NCBI GenBank assembly: GCA_021414085.1
Contig: JAIOPC010000001.1
Coordinates: 1 to 53,371, forward strand
Direction of reading: 5' to 3'
Origin: Actinomycetes bacterium
GTDB lineage: Bacteria; Actinomycetota; Acidimicrobiia; Acidimicrobiales; Ilumatobacteraceae
Length of the DNA stretch: 53,371 nucleotides
The translations under genes and the position numbers were made by a program. Below, piece by piece: positions 15,356 through 20,338 of this stretch. The notes below the pieces were generated by a model, which searched no databases, was not told where the DNA came from, and saw only the letters and a list, made by a program, of their open reading frames with translations. Every line of letters begins with the position of its first letter. Position 1 is the stretch's first letter.

Positions 15356-15711
15356 GCCCGACGGCGGCGGCCAGCGGCCTCGTTGCGCTCGCGCACCTGG
15401 CGCAGCACGATCACTTGGCCGGGTTCAACGGGTTGGCCGTCGACGAACACCGCGTCGCCATCTTGCAACTCGTCGGCGAGGGATGCCGCGCGGCTTGGCG
15501 TGCCGGTAATGCGTGCGCGCAGTTCGATCTGCTTGGCCTTGATCGTCAGCTTGGCGTCGTGGGCCGTCTCGCGGACGCGATCGGCTGCCTTATGCGCCAG
15601 GTTCGCCGGCGACAGTTCCGCGGCTGCGGCCTTCACCTTCTTCTTCGCCACGCTGGCACCGACGACGCCGGCAGCTGCTCCACCCATGAACCACGTCAGT
15701 CGCTTCATCAT
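15352..15711 (-). CDS. Small membrane-anchored hypothetical protein
   Basis: 119 aa. The N-terminus (MMKRLTWFMGGAAAGVVGAS) is one hydrophobic segment, followed by a Lys/Ala-rich helix (AKKKVKAAAAELSPANL) and a charged, probably coiled region. The C-terminus includes GDAVFVDGQPVEPGQVIV and ends in a run of arginines. It overlaps rarA upstream and glcD downstream by four bases each, so it is translationally coupled on both sides. Similar small proteins near rarA occur in other actinobacteria as I remember them. Function unknown. Confidence 0.65.
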   Translation of the reverse strand: MMKRLTWFMGGAAAGVVGASVAKKKVKAAAAELSPANLAHKAADRVRETAHDAKLTIKAKQIELRARITGTPSRAASLADELQDGDAVFVDGQPVEPGQVIVLRQVRERNEAAGRRRRA

Positions 15712-16985
15712 GGTTGACGCTTCTCCATTCGCTCGGCTACCGCGGCCTCGGCACCGTGTTGTGTCGGCTCGTAGTAGCGCTTGTCGGCCTGCTCGGTAGG
15801 AAGGTATTGCTGCTCAATCCAACCGTCGGGATGATCGTGAGGGTAGTCGTAATCGACGCCGTGGCCGAGGCTCTTCGCCCCTTGATAGTGAGCATCGCGC
15901 AGGTGAGCGGGCACTTCGCCAACGGCACCCGCTTGCACGTCGGAGCGAGCGTTCCAGATGGCGAGCGCCGCCCGGTTGCTCTTCGGGGCGGTCGCGAGAT
16001 GGATCGCGGTCTGGCTGAGGTTGAGCTGCGCCTCCGGTAAGCCGACGTGTTCCAACGCGTGCGCGGCAGCGACTGCAACCTGCAGCGCTGTCGGGTCGGC
16101 CATGCCCACATCTTCGCTCGCGAAGATGATCATTCGTCGAGCGATGAAGCGCGCGTCCTCACCAGCCTCGAGCATGCGGGCGAGGTAGTAGACGGCGGCC
16201 TGTGGATCGCTGCCGCGCATGCTCTTGATGAACGCGCTGACCACGTCGTAGTGATCGTCGCGGCCATAGCGCAGCGCGCTGGTGCCTAACGCCTGCTCGA
16301 CGTGCTCCAGCGTCACCTCGTTCGGGTTTGCCAGCGCAACTGCCACTTCCAGCGCTGTCAGCACCTGTCGCCCATCGCCGCCCGCACGGTCGGCAAGGTG
16401 TGCGACGGCTTCCGGAGTCGCGGTGCGGCCCTCGGCCTGCAGTCCGCGTGCAATCAGAATCTCGATGTCCGGCTTGGCGAGTGGCTCCAGCCGAAACAAC
16501 GTGCTGCGACTACGCAGCGGCGCATTGACCTCGAAGAACGGATTCTCCGTAGTTGCACCGATGAGCGTGAGCGTGCCGTCTTCAACTGCCGGTAGCAGCG
16601 CGTCTTGCTGCGCTTTCGAGAAGCGATGGATCTCGTCGAGAAACAGAATCGTGCCGCGGCCCAGCTCACCCAGCCGCTGGCGAGCGCGCTCGATCACTTC
16701 CCGCACGTCCTTCACACCCGCGCTGACGGCGCTCATCTGCTCGAACGCACGCTTCGTGCTGCCCGCAACTGCGAGCGCGAGCGTGGTCTTACCCGTGCCC
16801 GGTGGACCCCAGAAGATGGCGCTAGTCAGCCGATCTTGCTCAACCAGTCGTCGCAACGGCTTTCCCTCACCAACGAGGTGCGTCTGGCCGACGACATCAT
16901 CGAGCGTGCGCGGTCGCAGTCGGGCCGCTAACGGCGCCTGACTGCGCAGCAGGTTCTCCGCGGCAGCACTAAAGAGATCGGGCAC
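15708..16985 (-). CDS. rarA: Replication-associated recombination protein RarA
   Basis: About 425 aa AAA+ ATPase (MgsA/WRNIP1 family) acting at stalled replication forks. Walker A is GPPGTGKTTLA, Walker B ILFLDEIHRF, sensor 1 GATTENPFFEVN, and the arginine-finger block is PLRSRSTLF. The C-terminal tetramerisation region includes DPQAAVYYLARMLEAGEDAR and KGAKSLGHGVDYDYPHDHP-like strings. GTG 16985 (PDLFSAAAENLL) fits the family N-terminus; the upstream extension to 17066 overlaps the Nudix gene and looks unrelated. It overlaps the Nudix stop by 17 bases. Confidence 0.93.
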   Translation of the reverse strand: MPDLFSAAAENLLRSQAPLAARLRPRTLDDVVGQTHLVGEGKPLRRLVEQDRLTSAIFWGPPGTGKTTLALAVAGSTKRAFEQMSAVSAGVKDVREVIERARQRLGELGRGTILFLDEIHRFSKAQQDALLPAVEDGTLTLIGATTENPFFEVNAPLRSRSTLFRLEPLAKPDIEILIARGLQAEGRTATPEAVAHLADRAGGDGRQVLTALEVAVALANPNEVTLEHVEQALGTSALRYGRDDHYDVVSAFIKSMRGSDPQAAVYYLARMLEAGEDARFIARRMIIFASEDVGMADPTALQVAVAAAHALEHVGLPEAQLNLSQTAIHLATAPKSNRAALAIWNARSDVQAGAVGEVPAHLRDAHYQGAKSLGHGVDYDYPHDHPDGWIEQQYLPTEQADKRYYEPTQHGAEAAVAERMEKRQP

Positions 16986-17466
16986 GCCTGCGACGGTAGC
17001 GGGACGGCCGACCCTCGAGGGCGCCGAGGACGCGTTCGTATGGTCCCCGCCGCCAGTCGACGACATGGTCGATCAGCCACCGCGGCTGAACCCACTTCCA
17101 GGCGACGAACTCCCTGCCATCGGGTATCGGTTGGATGTCGGCCGAAAGCGCATCGAAGAGAAACCACTTCTGTGTCTGGCCGAGCCGATCGCGGGGACTC
17201 GACTTGCGCGCCCGGACTTCCGGCGGCCACTCGTAGGCCAACCACTCGGGGTGCTCGGCGCGAAGTGCCACGTGCTCCGGAGTAAGCCCCGTCTCCTCGA
17301 ACAACTCGCGCCACGCGCCGTCGATGGGCAGCTCACCCGCATTCAGGCCGCCCTGCGGCAGCTGCCAGCTGCCCGTTGAGTCGGCGCGCTCAAACGCAAG
17401 GATCTGCTGCATGTCGGGGTGGCAAACCGCCATCACGACCCCGGCCCGAAACTGCGCGCTCGCCAT
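16969..17466 (-). CDS. Nudix hydrolase, RppH-like
   Basis: 165 aa. The Nudix box is visible as GGLNAGELPIDGAWRELFEE followed by TG (GX5EX7REUXEEXGU). WQLPQGG upstream and KWFLFDALSADIQPIPDGREF and WKWVQPRWLIDHVVDWRR downstream match RppH, which removes pyrophosphate from the 5' end of mRNA or hydrolyses dinucleoside polyphosphates. ATG 17466 is preceded by TACGGT six bases upstream, so it is leaderless and this is the first gene of the operon that continues to glcE. A 45-bp palindrome lies just upstream of the box. Confidence 0.88.
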   Translation of the reverse strand: MASAQFRAGVVMAVCHPDMQQILAFERADSTGSWQLPQGGLNAGELPIDGAWRELFEETGLTPEHVALRAEHPEWLAYEWPPEVRARKSSPRDRLGQTQKWFLFDALSADIQPIPDGREFVAWKWVQPRWLIDHVVDWRRGPYERVLGALEGRPSRYRRRRARSL

Positions 17467-17478: not shown

Positions 17479-17496
17479 GCCAACCAACCCCAATCG

Positions 17497-17541
17497 CGTT
17501 TGTACGCTCGCGCACGATATGCGTGCACGAGCGAACAAACG
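17497..17541. repeat. 45-bp palindromic repeat, copy A
   Basis: An imperfect 45-base palindrome that begins CGTTTGTACGCTCG and ends CGAGCGAACAAACG. Copies B (17559) and C (18509) have the same length and layout: a TTTG-bearing tip, a CGCT block, a GCACGC block around a TA/AT centre, and the mirror halves. It lies between the Nudix promoter and the nuclease pseudogene. Confidence 0.85.
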
Positions 17542-17558
17542 GGTCGGCCGCACAACCA

Positions 17559-17603
17559 GGTTTGTTCGCTGCCGCACGCTATGCATGCACCAGCGTTCAG
17601 ACG
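17559..17603. repeat. 45-bp palindromic repeat, copy B
   Basis: Same family as copies A and C, beginning GGTTTGTTCGCTGC and ending CCAGCGTTCAGACG. It covers the stop codon of the nuclease pseudogene (17597-17599), so the gene ends inside the repeat. It is 17 bases from copy A. Confidence 0.85.
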
Positions 17604-18487
17604 CGAGACAGAAAGCGGCGGATCGTGTCGGCGATATGGGCGTCGGACATGCGCCACGTGATCTCGATTGGCGTCCAGCCGTCCAGCACGAGGGTGTTCT
17701 GTCGGCGGGCGTCGCTGTCGAGATCGGAGCTCAGCCGATGGAAGCCAAACCCGTTGCCCTCTAGGTAAAGCTTTCGGTCCGGCCACGCAAAGTCGATGCG
17801 GTAGCGATGGCCGTCGACTTGCACCCGATGTTGCTGACTGGGTCGCGCGATGCCACAACGGTCGATGATGCGGGCGATGCGTCCCTCCAACTCGCTCTCA
17901 CCGGGGTCGTATCCGGGAATCCGAGCGGCGAGCACTATCCGAAGCTTCTTGATCGAACGCCCAGGTGCAGGACGCGATCGAGCCACGCGCTCGCGTACAT
18001 CCTCGAGCTCGATCTGTCGGGTGCGCAGGAACTAGTCGATCAACTTGCCCAGGGCATCGATCGTCATGAAGCCGCTGCAATCGACGATCGTCTTCAACGG
18101 CGACGTTAACTGGATCCCGTCGCGTTGCACGAGATCGTCTGGCTCGAGCGTCGTCGATCGATGGCACGTCACGCCATCGAGTCGCACCATGCGTGAGATC
18201 GGTCCGATCACGTGAATCGATCCGTCGTCAGCTACATCGGCGCCGAGTAGTCGTGCTGCAGTTGCGTGCGCGATCGCAACCATCGGTCCACACGTGAGAG
18301 CTACCGCCCGCACTTGCTGCTTCCACGTCGGTGGCGCCCCTGCGACGACGACCACCTCCCTGCGCAACGCTCGATAACGACCAGCCTCACGGCGCCGCGC
18401 CATCTGCCCGCGGGTGACACCGGCCTCAGAAGCAACCTCATTAGTCAGCAGGCCATCGTGACGTTCTGCCCAGTCTTCGGGTCGCAT
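17597..18487 (-). pseudogene. AbiEi-like N-domain plus Vsr-like (DUF559) nuclease, interrupted by one amber codon
   Basis: Two halves lie in one frame, separated only by a TAG at 18032-18034. The N-half (from ATG 18487, with a GGAGGG ribosome site) resembles the AbiEi/winged-helix antitoxin-like domain common in actinobacteria: HDGLLTNEVASEAGVTRGQM, then CGPMVAIAHATAARLLG and LTSPLKTIVDCSG. The C-half has a Vsr/DUF559 PD-(D/E)XK-type domain: GESELEGRIARII, YRIDFAWPDRKLYLEGNGFGFH, NTLVLDGWTPIEITWR. The frame reads through the TAG without a gap (LGKLID, stop, FLRTRQIELEDV), about 296 codons, normal for the family. A palindrome of the same family lies at each end. Confidence 0.85.
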
Positions 18488-18508
18488 CGCACCCTCCGAT
18501 CCACTCAG

Positions 18509-18553
18509 CGTTTGTTCGCTGGCGCACGCATAGCGTGCGGCAGCGTTCAAACG
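18509..18553. repeat. 45-bp palindromic repeat, copy C
   Basis: Begins CGTTTGTTCGCTGG and ends GGCAGCGTTCAAACG; 45 bases as in copies A and B. It lies 21 bases upstream of the nuclease pseudogene start, mirroring copy B at the other end. The aspS stop is about 40 bases further on. Confidence 0.85.
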
Positions 18554-18595
18554 CGGTTTGGTTTTGGGGGAAGCGCGGCTGGATCGTACTGGCGG

Positions 18596-20338
18596 CTAGG
18601 CCTTCGGCGGTAGGACCCGGATGCCGAGGTCGTCCAACTGCTTCTGCGCGACTGGCGTTGGCGCGTTGGTCATCGGATCCATGCCCGACTGCGTCTTCGG
18701 GAAGGCGATCACCTCGCGAATGTTCTCCTCGCCAGCGAAGATCGCGACCAAGCGATCGATGCCGAGGCCGAAGCCGCCGTGCGGCGGCGCGCCGTACTTG
18801 AACGGGTTGAGGAAGAACCCGAATCGCTTCTGCGCTTCCTCGTCGCTGATGCCAAGCAGACGGAACACACGAGCCTGCAACTCGGGCTGGTGAATACGAA
18901 TCGAACCGGAGCCCAGCTCCCAGCCGTTGAGCACCAAGTCGTACGCCTGACTGCGGACCTTGAGCGGATCCGTCTCCAGCATCTCCACGTCGTCGGGGTG
19001 TGGCTGCGTGAACGGATGATGCCCCGGCTTCGGACGACCAGTGACCTCGTCGACCCCGATGAACATCGGAAAGTCGACGACCCACAAGTAGCGATATGGC
19101 CCCTCGTGTACCGGCGGACGACCGAGATCGTTGCGCAGCGTGCCGAGCACTTCACACGTCATCGACCACTCGTCGGCGACAATCAGCAGCAAGTCGCCGG
19201 GCGCCGCCGACAACGCTGACTTCAGCGCACCCTGCTCGGTATCGCTGAGGAACTTCGCCACCGGTGACTCCAGCGAACCATCGGCCGCAACCTTCAGCCA
19301 CACCAAACCCTTGGCGCCAATCTTCTTCGCCTTGTCGGTCAGTCCGTCGAGCTTGTTGCGGCCCATCTCGTCTGCCTTGCCCGTCGCGTTGATGCCCTTG
19401 ATGGTCGCTGCGCCGGCGAACGCCTTGAACTCGGTTGCACCAAACACTTCGGTGAGATCAACCAACTCCATACCGAAGCGCAGGTCGGGCTTGTCGACGC
19501 CGAAGCGGTTCATCGCGTCGTGCCATGTCATCGTTTCGATCGCTGCTTCGGGTTGGCCGGCAGCGGCAGCTGCAGCGAGCACCGCGGCACCAATGGCGCG
19601 ATGCACGTCGTTCTGGTCGACGAAGCTCATCTCCGCATCAAGCTGCATGAATTCGTATTGCCGATCAGCCCGCAGGTCTTCATCGCGCAAGCAGCGCGCC
19701 AACTGGTAGTACCGATCGATGCCAGCGACCATCAGCAATTGCTTGAACAGCTGCGGACTCTGCGGCAGCGCATAAAACGAACCCGGCTGCTGACGACTGG
19801 GGACGATGAACTCGCGCGCACCCTCGGGTGTCGACGGCACCAACATCGGGGTCTCGACCTCGACAAAGCCCTGTGACTCCATCGCGCTTCGAATCGCGGA
19901 GTTCACGGATGCGCGCAACCGCAAGTTGCGCTGCATGCGCTCGCGACGAATGTCGATGTAGCGATGTTGTAGGCGCGTGTTCTCCGCCACCTGATCGGCG
20001 CGCTCGCTCACTGGGAACGGCGGCGGCTCGGCGACGTTGAGAATCTCGACGACGCAGTCCTGCAATTCGATGCCACCAGTTGCCAAACGGTCGTTGCGAC
20101 TCTCGGCGGGTCGCTCGGCGACTACACCAGTAATGCGCAGCACGTACTCGGGCCGCACATCAACCGCGTTGTCGACCACGCATTGCGTGACGCCGGTGTG
20201 GTCGCGCAAGTCGACGAACGCAAGCTTCTCACCGTGTTCGCGACGGCTGGCAACCCAACCGGTGAGCGTCGCGCGCTGCCCAATGTGTTCGGGACGCAGT
20301 TCGCCGCATTGGTGGGTGCGCATAGATGTTGATGTCAT
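18596..20338 (-). CDS. aspS: Aspartyl-tRNA synthetase
   Basis: 580 aa class II synthetase of the bacterial type. The N-terminal OB anticodon-binding domain shows GWVASRREHGEKLAFVDLRD. Motif 2 lies in YYQLARCLRDEDLRADRQYE and motif 3 in PPHGGFGLGIDRLVAI. The bacterial GAD insertion lies between (about residues 290-410). It charges tRNA-Asp, and possibly tRNA-Asn if the organism lacks asnS; this cannot be judged here. The ATG at 20338 overlaps the hisS stop by four bases, an arrangement seen in many bacteria. Confidence 0.97.
   Translation of the reverse strand: MTSTSMRTHQCGELRPEHIGQRATLTGWVASRREHGEKLAFVDLRDHTGVTQCVVDNAVDVRPEYVLRITGVVAERPAESRNDRLATGGIELQDCVVEILNVAEPPPFPVSERADQVAENTRLQHRYIDIRRERMQRNLRLRASVNSAIRSAMESQGFVEVETPMLVPSTPEGAREFIVPSRQQPGSFYALPQSPQLFKQLLMVAGIDRYYQLARCLRDEDLRADRQYEFMQLDAEMSFVDQNDVHRAIGAAVLAAAAAAGQPEAAIETMTWHDAMNRFGVDKPDLRFGMELVDLTEVFGATEFKAFAGAATIKGINATGKADEMGRNKLDGLTDKAKKIGAKGLVWLKVAADGSLESPVAKFLSDTEQGALKSALSAAPGDLLLIVADEWSMTCEVLGTLRNDLGRPPVHEGPYRYLWVVDFPMFIGVDEVTGRPKPGHHPFTQPHPDDVEMLETDPLKVRSQAYDLVLNGWELGSGSIRIHQPELQARVFRLLGISDEEAQKRFGFFLNPFKYGAPPHGGFGLGIDRLVAIFAGEENIREVIAFPKTQSGMDPMTNAPTPVAQKQLDDLGIRVLPPKA

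Follow-up and report, generated by a model that had tools for sequence, protein, structure and literature searches.

Genome-specific palindrome families at AbiEi-DUF559 nuclease genes in Actinomycetota: a candidate palindrome-spreading system

A nuclease gene bounded by palindromes between aspS and a NUDIX gene

The window, which is the whole stretch of 53,371 nucleotides that was analysed (contig JAIOPC010000001.1 of assembly GCA_021414085.1), contains a minus-strand gene for an AbiEi-like and DUF559/MTES_1575-like PD-(D/E)XK nuclease of about 296 amino acids (17597-18487). Its neighbours are conserved: aspS upstream (18596-20338, minus strand), a NUDIX gene downstream (16969-17466, minus strand) and, next after it, a rarA-like AAA ATPase gene (15708-17066, minus strand). 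Only the NUDIX gene is named from a Pfam match; aspS, rarA and, at the same locus, hisS are what we take the other genes to be, here and at the syntenic counterparts.

Three imperfect palindromes of 47 bp, each with an arm layout of 22+3+22, lie around the gene. Palindrome C (18508-18554) is located between aspS and the start codon, 20 bases from the latter, palindrome B (17558-17604) contains the stop codon (17599-17597), and the start of palindrome A (17496-17542) is 62 bp away from that of B. The earlier note on this DNA had described three palindromes around a DUF559 gene, with the stop codon inside B and C just before the start; the palindromes are real and this arrangement was confirmed. 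All three are near-symmetric and match each other in both orientations. A and C were the sole palindromes in the window to have 16 or more paired positions among the 20 of the arm, while the more diverged B fell under this limit. The same scan of ten single-base shuffles of the window gave 0 matches in seven and 1 match in three. When up to 3 mismatches were allowed, a half-site pattern matched the window 9 times as compared to 6.3 expected, a count reached in 15 of 100 shuffles, and taken alone this test is not above chance; six of the 9 matches, each with 0-2 mismatches, correspond to the arms of the three palindromes. A search of the window against Rfam recovered one tRNA and nothing else.

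Codon 18034-18032 of the gene is an in-frame TAG (18032-18034, minus strand; residue 153 of P0001), and the gene is therefore interrupted in assembly GCA_021414085.1. The TAG is missing from the orthologues of five same-genus genomes, and in the window it marks either a pseudogene or an assembly error.

The protein resembles an AbiEi-like fold joined to a PD-(D/E)XK-type nuclease

Genomes are referred to below by G numbers, with G000 for the genome of the window (3.2 Mb, 97% complete). The read-through protein of the window gene matched the Pfam families AbiEi_3_N and AbiEi_4 with E-values of about 0.1 and MTES_1575 with an E-value of 0.002 (0.0007 for the C-terminal fragment); none of these matches reached the cut-off, and the Pfam support for this copy is therefore weak. 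Among ten homologues, DUF559 or MTES_1575 was matched in seven (three above the cut-off), an AbiEi family in five (three above the cut-off) and no family in two, and the G003 orthologue matched AbiEi families alone. No match was obtained for six proteins searched against NCBIfam.

A structure model of the G003 orthologue (mean pLDDT 76) had as its best structural match the AbiEi antitoxin 6y8q (E-value 9.5e-6, 200 aligned columns, TM 0.61 by target length). The table for 6y8q gives no aligned range, and the Pfam matches to AbiEi are N-terminal in the homologues. Residues 224-229 and 244-271, in the nuclease core, are modelled with a pLDDT under 50. Because the model is poor in this core, the nuclease assignment is based on profiles and invariant residues. 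A profile of the C-terminal part from 18 homologues matched 3hrl (an endonuclease-like protein), PvuRts1I and 3r3p (a mobile intron protein) in the PDB, with E-values from 1e-4 to 7e-4. In 18 diverse homologues, S198, D232, E243, H250, D259 and R262 are invariant and E201 nearly so; the acidic residues are as expected of a PD-(D/E)XK site, and the catalytic ones are presumably among them. The protein resembles an AbiEi-like fold with a C-terminal PD-(D/E)XK-type nuclease. Across eight orthologues, the nuclease part has a mean identity of 0.74 as compared to 0.52-0.57 for the AbiEi parts, with domain borders set by hand.

In its own promoter, AbiEi binds a pair of 23-bp inverted repeats that are separated by a 3-bp spacer (PMC7319586). 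By analogy, the similarity between this 23+3+23 layout and the 22+3+22 layout of our palindromes may be the best clue to how the palindromes are read.

Orthologues and their palindromes in related genomes

We searched 15 relatives with the read-through protein of the window gene. Orthologues with 61-69% identity were identified in five of them (G003, G005, G007, G010, G014), and paralogues with 23-35% identity were found in all 15. The order hisS-aspS-gene-nudix-rarA is the same in G000 and the five same-genus genomes with orthologues. Each of the five orthologues has a palindrome upstream and another at the gene end, and the gene is bounded by palindromes on both sides in all six gene-bearing genomes of the genus. 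Another palindrome follows 61-64 bp further downstream in G003, G005 (two copies), G007 and G010, while G014 has no further palindrome downstream of the gene-end copy. The inner sequence of the palindromes differs among the orthologous loci, and the outer GCGTTTG..CAAACGC alone is common, with GCGTCTG..CAGACGC as the outer ends in G005. Two additional orthologues are located beside aspS: that of KLAP8 (61% identical to G003) has two upstream palindromes on a contig that stops just past the gene, and that of 336R (57%) has 46-bp palindromes on both sides. The distant homologues of PFL8 (40%) and LS_FP_2 (33%) are located elsewhere and their palindromes are less clear.

Pairs of palindromes 61-64 or 73 bp apart, start to start, were also recovered from contigs C162 and C212 of G007, C45, C148 and C256 of G005, C17 and C53 of G003, C66 of G010, and others. 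These spacings could fit six and seven helical turns, respectively; the copying of one pair is equally possible.

Four other DUF559-like genes were identified in G000 by protein search, all 28-30% identical to the window gene, and a profile search added a fifth homologue (C17:661096). None of the four has palindromes of the window family beside it. The homologue on C13 has clear palindromes of its own kind and that on C7 a weaker pair, while no clear palindromes were found at the two homologues on C17. We rejected the reading of the gene as an insertion sequence because it is syntenic and has no near-identical copies in G000. The proposal of a REP-type mobile unit holds in part: the palindromes, their genome-specific versions and the families at paralogues are REP-like, but the proposal is not supported for the gene itself, which lies between aspS and the NUDIX gene in 6 of 6 same-genus genomes that have it.

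We compared the presence of the gene to the presence of palindromes in 16 genomes, namely 15 from the genus and G031. Palindromes were detected in 6/6 gene-bearing genomes and in 4/10 without a detected gene (p = 0.026, from few and mutually related genomes). The corresponding values are 6/6 and 2/6 (p = 0.030) for the genomes in which the locus was assembled, with G006, G009, G011 and G012 dropped, 6/6 and 3/9 (p = 0.017) for the same genus alone, and 6/6 and 1/5 (p = 0.015) for same-genus genomes with the locus assembled. Since the sequences are mutually related, these counts are not independent, and since most of the genomes are metagenome assemblies, absence of the gene is uncertain in the fragmented ones. 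The four genomes with palindromes and no detected gene are G001 and G031, where the locus is empty, and G009 and G011, where it is unassembled. In G001, aspS and nudix are about 65 bp apart; the spacer contains CAGACGC and no gene, and we read this as a probable loss of the unit, with inexact ends. In G008, G013 and G031, aspS and nudix are nearly touching. Another ORF of roughly 1.2 kb takes the place of the DUF559 gene between aspS and nudix in G002 (L155, C73), and no DUF559 gene is located within 1.5 kb of the locus in G004. KLAP8 and G031 are a near pair (AspS 97.6% identical), with the gene in KLAP8 and not in G031.

Dispersed palindromes mostly carry the version of their own genome

In total, 19 copies of the palindrome were identified in G000, of which 3 are at the gene and 16 are not beside a DUF559 gene. 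The pattern CGTTTG-N33-CAAACG, hereafter the species-neutral pattern, has 17 exact matches in G000, to which palindrome B and copy C9:16331, with deviant ends, are added; the reversed pattern has no match in this genome. The first 15 copies found, A, B and C among them, have a mean column identity of 87% when aligned, and the ends are mostly GCGTTTG..CAAACGC. Four copies, at C2:5306, C7:121112, C14:77247 and C14:221295, have a GGGCG core and form a second type. This type is nearer to the version of G007, and two of these four sites hold another version in G011 or G001.

The species-neutral pattern was matched 20 times in G003, 16 in G011, 14 in G009, 13 in G007, 6 in G010, 3 in G014 and 2 in G001, and CGTYTG..CARACG was matched 12 times in G005, 7 in G010 (one match non-palindromic) and 3 in G001. 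No palindromes were found in the same-genus genomes G002, G004, G006, G008, G012 and G013, the two pattern matches in G004 pairing at merely 6 and 9 of 22 positions. Of 46 genomes from other genera, three yielded a single exact match apiece, in which 11 or 12 of the 22 positions pair; the reversed-pattern control gave 0-1 matches. G031, which belongs to another genus, contains weak copies: one pattern match with 13 of 22 pairs and two places recovered with a covariance model, with 15 and 17 pairs. The pattern-matched palindrome, at G031:C54:44158, is 84-87% identical to those at the KLAP8 gene.

The mean identity of the inner sequence is 0.73-0.87 within genomes and 0.31-0.71 between genomes, with the exception of G003 and G009 (0.77). 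We compared 59 pattern-matched dispersed copies from the six gene-bearing genomes, leaving out genomes in which no gene was seen, to the palindromes at the genes. In this comparison, 47 were nearest to the palindromes of their own gene, 3 tied and 9 were nearer to those of another genome; four of the nine are the GGGCG-core copies of G000. On average, the copies at the G000 gene have an identity of 0.80 to the dispersed copies of G011 and 0.73 to those of G000 itself, and the copies at the G003 gene have 0.74 to the dispersed copies of G009 and 0.73 to their own. The dispersed palindromes mostly carry the version of their own genome, and the matching is imperfect.

The earlier note had considered that copies might cluster at DUF559 genes or, on the contrary, be frequent without linkage to them. 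The orthologues are bounded by the palindrome, and many paralogues have palindromes of their own. Of the 19 copies in G000, 16 are not beside a DUF559 gene, but these copies follow the version of the gene and are in this sense not unlinked.

Arm covariation, shared sites and genomic placement

We analysed arm covariation in seven hand-picked palindromes, each from a different species. In this set, changes on both sides were seen for 14 of 21 pairs (24 cells), values that were not reached in any of 500 shuffles by any measure, and the slid controls are far below. Within G000 there is no covariation of the arms, and the pairs fit less well than in shuffles; on this ground, we rejected a reading of the palindromes as an RNA structure. 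The palindromic form is thus kept while the sequence gets replaced. G003 and G014 have AspS proteins with 95% identity and DUF559 proteins with 72% identity, and their palindromes are 35% identical. Mantel tests revealed no correlation of palindrome similarity with protein or AspS identity (r = 0.13 and 0.15, p about 0.3), and the replacement of the palindromes is not gradual.

We also surveyed the sites at which palindromes are located. From 75 fetched loci, of which 70 contain palindromes by the pattern, 73 sites in nine genomes were obtained. Flanks are shared by 19 pairs of sites across genomes, 14 of which match on both flanks. Several flank-matched sites hold different versions: one in G000, G011 and G005; another in G000, G011 and G005, the last with a doubled palindrome; one in G003 and G014; and one common to G011 and G000, at which G000 holds its own second type. 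At a further site, G003 and G009 have a palindrome and G014 does not, with conserved flanking genes and a spacer too diverged for exact ends. The shared sites with different versions, together with the filled and empty site, suggest that rewriting in place and gain or loss both occur. No new insertion of a palindrome was caught among the compared sites, and since some sites are old and shared, spread would be slow or rare. The earlier note had suggested a search for empty sites that define the exact unit. The aspS locus of G001 does not give exact ends, and the G014 counterpart of the filled site is not a clean empty site.

With rough ORF calling, the 73 sites were classified as 27 tandem, 21 convergent and 10 divergent intergenic sites, 11 sites in a called ORF and 4 at edges. 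All adjacent gene pairs at the surveyed loci comprise 93 tandem, 43 convergent and 33 divergent pairs. Between convergent genes, the palindrome starts 0-10 bp beyond the nearest stop codon in 18 of 21 cases, with distances counted from the last sense codon.

Palindromes at paralogues in the genus and the phylum

In the genus, 69 of 81 places with paralogues were taken, of which 62 could be delimited. Palindromes with at least 16 of 22 arm pairs were found upstream of 26 of the 62, downstream of 27, on either side of 36 and on both sides of 17, as compared to 0.6% of 471 control windows from the same loci, which are largely coding. Sequence sharing between the left and right flanks exceeded the 95th percentile of the control, in which the left flank of one gene is compared to the right flank of another, for 53 of 61 paralogues. 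The flanks of random 900-bp stretches at the same loci stay near the control. Paralogues thus often have private palindromes.

In a second lineage, the only other one that was traced across whole genomes, the palindrome CCACGGG-N31..34-CCCGTGG bounds its own gene in G000, G001, G004 and G006, with one side matched in G013 and G014. It has 22 matches in G004, at least 23 in G006, 17 in G013 and 6 in G014, and no more than 4 in the other 11 genomes of the genus; with 3 matches in G000 and 2 in G001, it is hardly dispersed in these two. The pattern has 0-2 matches in other genera, and its reversed control has 0-2. The dispersed copies of this lineage are also present in genome-specific versions. 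A small array, with three CCACGGG palindromes in 350 bp, is located at G006:C19:5950-6299.

Homologues with E-values of at most 1e-20 were found in 24 of 80 sampled Actinomycetota genomes, counting G000. Outside G000, 88 of 122 listed places were taken, and 82 were usable. Palindromes were present on either side of 30 and on both sides of 13 of these 82 paralogues, as compared to 3.1% of 356 control windows, and flank sharing exceeded the 95th percentile of the control for 51 and the control maximum for 38. In G085, G099 and G070, clear palindromes are missing at most of the DUF559 relatives. The possibility that DUF559 relatives would lack the palindrome is thus contradicted by the orthologues and correct for some distant genes. 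Matching palindromes on both sides were found for WP_068740572.1 of Tsukamurella tyrosinosolvens (NZ_LR134454.1). At this locus (L357, NZ_LR134454.1:120408-124214), the DUF559 gene lies between the matching palindromes GCGGTGGAT..ATCCACCGC. Two distant homologues, used as queries in place of the window gene, matched 1 and 2 of 72,556 plasmid records, and one distant homologue, again in place of the window gene, matched none of 50,697 phage records.

A proposed mechanism and its alternatives

The explanation that we favour, and consider moderately probable, is that the palindromes and the gene form one system in which the AbiEi-like part would bind the palindromes, the nuclease would cut, and repair would rewrite and spread the palindromes. 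We infer these activities from the genomic pattern that the comparisons show, namely the co-location of gene and palindromes, the genome-specific versions, the covariation of the arms between species, the different versions at shared sites and the private palindromes of paralogues. The AbiEi-like part would bind the 47-bp palindrome, with each 22-bp arm probably taken by one subunit. At or near the palindrome, either as a duplex or extruded as a cruciform, the PD-(D/E)XK nuclease would nick or cut. Diverged palindromes would then be overwritten by repair from another copy, resulting in concerted evolution, and rare misrepair would place a new palindrome in another intergenic region, in many cases directly beside a stop codon. 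The palindrome upstream of the gene probably represses it, as the AbiEi operator does. The gene would be passed on at a fixed position, as with a domesticated transposase, and its palindromes would spread and change with it. The more general statement, on which we are evenly divided, is that palindrome-spreading systems of this type are widespread in the Actinomycetota, with AbiEi-DUF559 nucleases that each have a private family of palindromes of about 47 bp, built from two AbiEi half-sites. Copies would be cut, overwritten in place from the matching version and newly seeded at gene ends, in a REP-like system of an origin independent of HUH transposases and with several lineages per genome.

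The strongest alternative, although rather unlikely, is that the palindromes are regulator sites: the AbiEi part controls its own gene, nearby gene ends or chromosome structure, the sites change as selection tracks the drifting specificity of the protein, and the nuclease has another role and does not spread the palindromes. It agrees with the favoured explanation that the AbiEi part reads the arms, and the two then part ways. The paired 23-bp inverted repeats bound by AbiEi in its own promoter (PMC7319586) are consistent with a regulator, as are the different versions at identical sites in different species and the higher variability of the AbiEi part (0.52-0.57) than of the nuclease (0.74). 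An operator, however, needs no copy across a stop codon or at unrelated convergent gene ends. Moreover, the number of pattern-matched copies differs from 3 in G014 to 20 in G003, with AspS 95% identical, which fits spread better than a regulon, and the acidic residues of the nuclease are invariant in 18 homologues.

A system for self/non-self discrimination or addiction, in which the nuclease attacks DNA and the palindromes are protective marks or sinks, is improbable. The fusion of a regulator- or antitoxin-like domain to a nuclease would suit it, and PMC12907096 attributes a DNA damage response to the Caulobacter DUF559 protein VsrA. In G001 and G031, however, palindromes persist although the gene is gone and the rest of the locus is intact. 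The immediate neighbours of the gene, aspS and nudix, are neither toxin nor methyltransferase genes.

Slightly less probable still, the palindromes could be ordinary hairpin terminators or mRNA-stabilizing hairpins, with the gene as one more neighbour. The 21 of 73 sites between convergent genes, 18 of them with the palindrome 0-10 bp past a stop codon, are what a terminator would produce, but the convergent sites are not much enriched (21/58 classified intergenic sites and 43/169 adjacent gene pairs). There is no T-run right after the stem in 15 aligned copies, the nearest being ggtttggtttt after copy C, and a terminator does not need a species-specific sequence of constant length. Nor does it account for flanks common to both sides of the gene far over the controls, or for arms that do not covary within G000.

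The least probable alternative, that the palindromes are REP or MITE elements which some other transposase moves and which favour DUF559 genes as a landing place, would explain the REP-like dispersal and the paired copies. It is at odds with the observations that there is no Y1 transposase match in G000 (97% complete, and the one genome searched), that different palindromes recur at different DUF559 lineages, and that copies are at fixed positions by the gene in 6/6 same-genus genomes.

In bacteria, the standard example of short palindromes linked to an enzyme is that of the REP elements, and the link is attributed to HUH chemistry. If the favoured explanation is true, an unrelated enzyme with REP-like habits would show that a nuclease can drive palindrome families, and a role would be assigned to one DUF559 group and its AbiEi-like domain. 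The joint rewriting of short repeats at many sites, a question that is also open for REPs, would become testable, and the orthologous sites with different versions would be ready material for studying it.

Comparison with known systems

No description of a palindrome-linked AbiEi-DUF559 system was found in the open literature, and none of the titles of open-literature papers on DUF559 concerned palindromes. Preprints and most subscription papers were outside the scope of this search, and the absence from print is therefore provisional.

The CGTC and GTAG repeats are likewise short dispersed palindromes near gene ends. The CGTC repeats have no known enzyme (PMC3733652), and they differ from our palindromes in their stems of 8-9 bp, unpaired tags and occurrence mostly in alphaproteobacteria. 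The Vsr-like and DUF559 endonucleases share the PD-(D/E)XK-type C-terminal part; here, this part is fused to AbiEi and bounded by palindromes, and no methyltransferase is among the immediate neighbours.

The AbiE systems are similar in that AbiEi is the best structural match and in that two 23-bp repeats (PMC7319586) come close to the 22+3+22 layout. They differ in that here a nuclease is fused to the AbiEi-like part and palindromes also lie beyond the gene end and at other genomic sites. No gene for an AbiEii (DUF1814) toxin is present beside the DUF559 gene in 6/6 same-genus genomes, the neighbours being aspS and NUDIX genes.

The closest likeness is to REPs and their RAYTs. As described in PMC2817692, RAYTs are always flanked by two REPs, which change and yet stay palindromic, the RAYT orthologues hold their place, and REP abundance follows the gene. 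TnpA-REP works on single-stranded REP (PMC8266576). The systems share a stationary enzyme gene with palindromes on both sides and copies throughout the genome (PMC2817692). The DUF559 palindromes likewise vary by genome and stay palindromic, but the distances of palindromes and proteins are uncorrelated. For REPs, abundance goes with the gene (PMC2817692); a tendency in this direction is seen here in few and mutually related genomes. The differences concern the enzyme, which is AbiEi plus PD-(D/E)XK here and HUH/Y1 for REPs, the palindromes, which have two 22-bp arms in 47 bp and no GTAG or GTGG head, and the copy number, with 3-20 matches per gene-bearing genome and at least 23 in the second lineage as compared to tens to hundreds of REPs, often over 100. 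A search of G000 alone for the Y1/HUH family PF01797 gave no match at E-values up to 1, while 10 of 14 controls were matched. We rejected a RAYT as the agent on this missing PF01797 match in G000. The system is set apart from REP/RAYT in having no Y1 transposase match in G000, no GTAG head and no high copy number.
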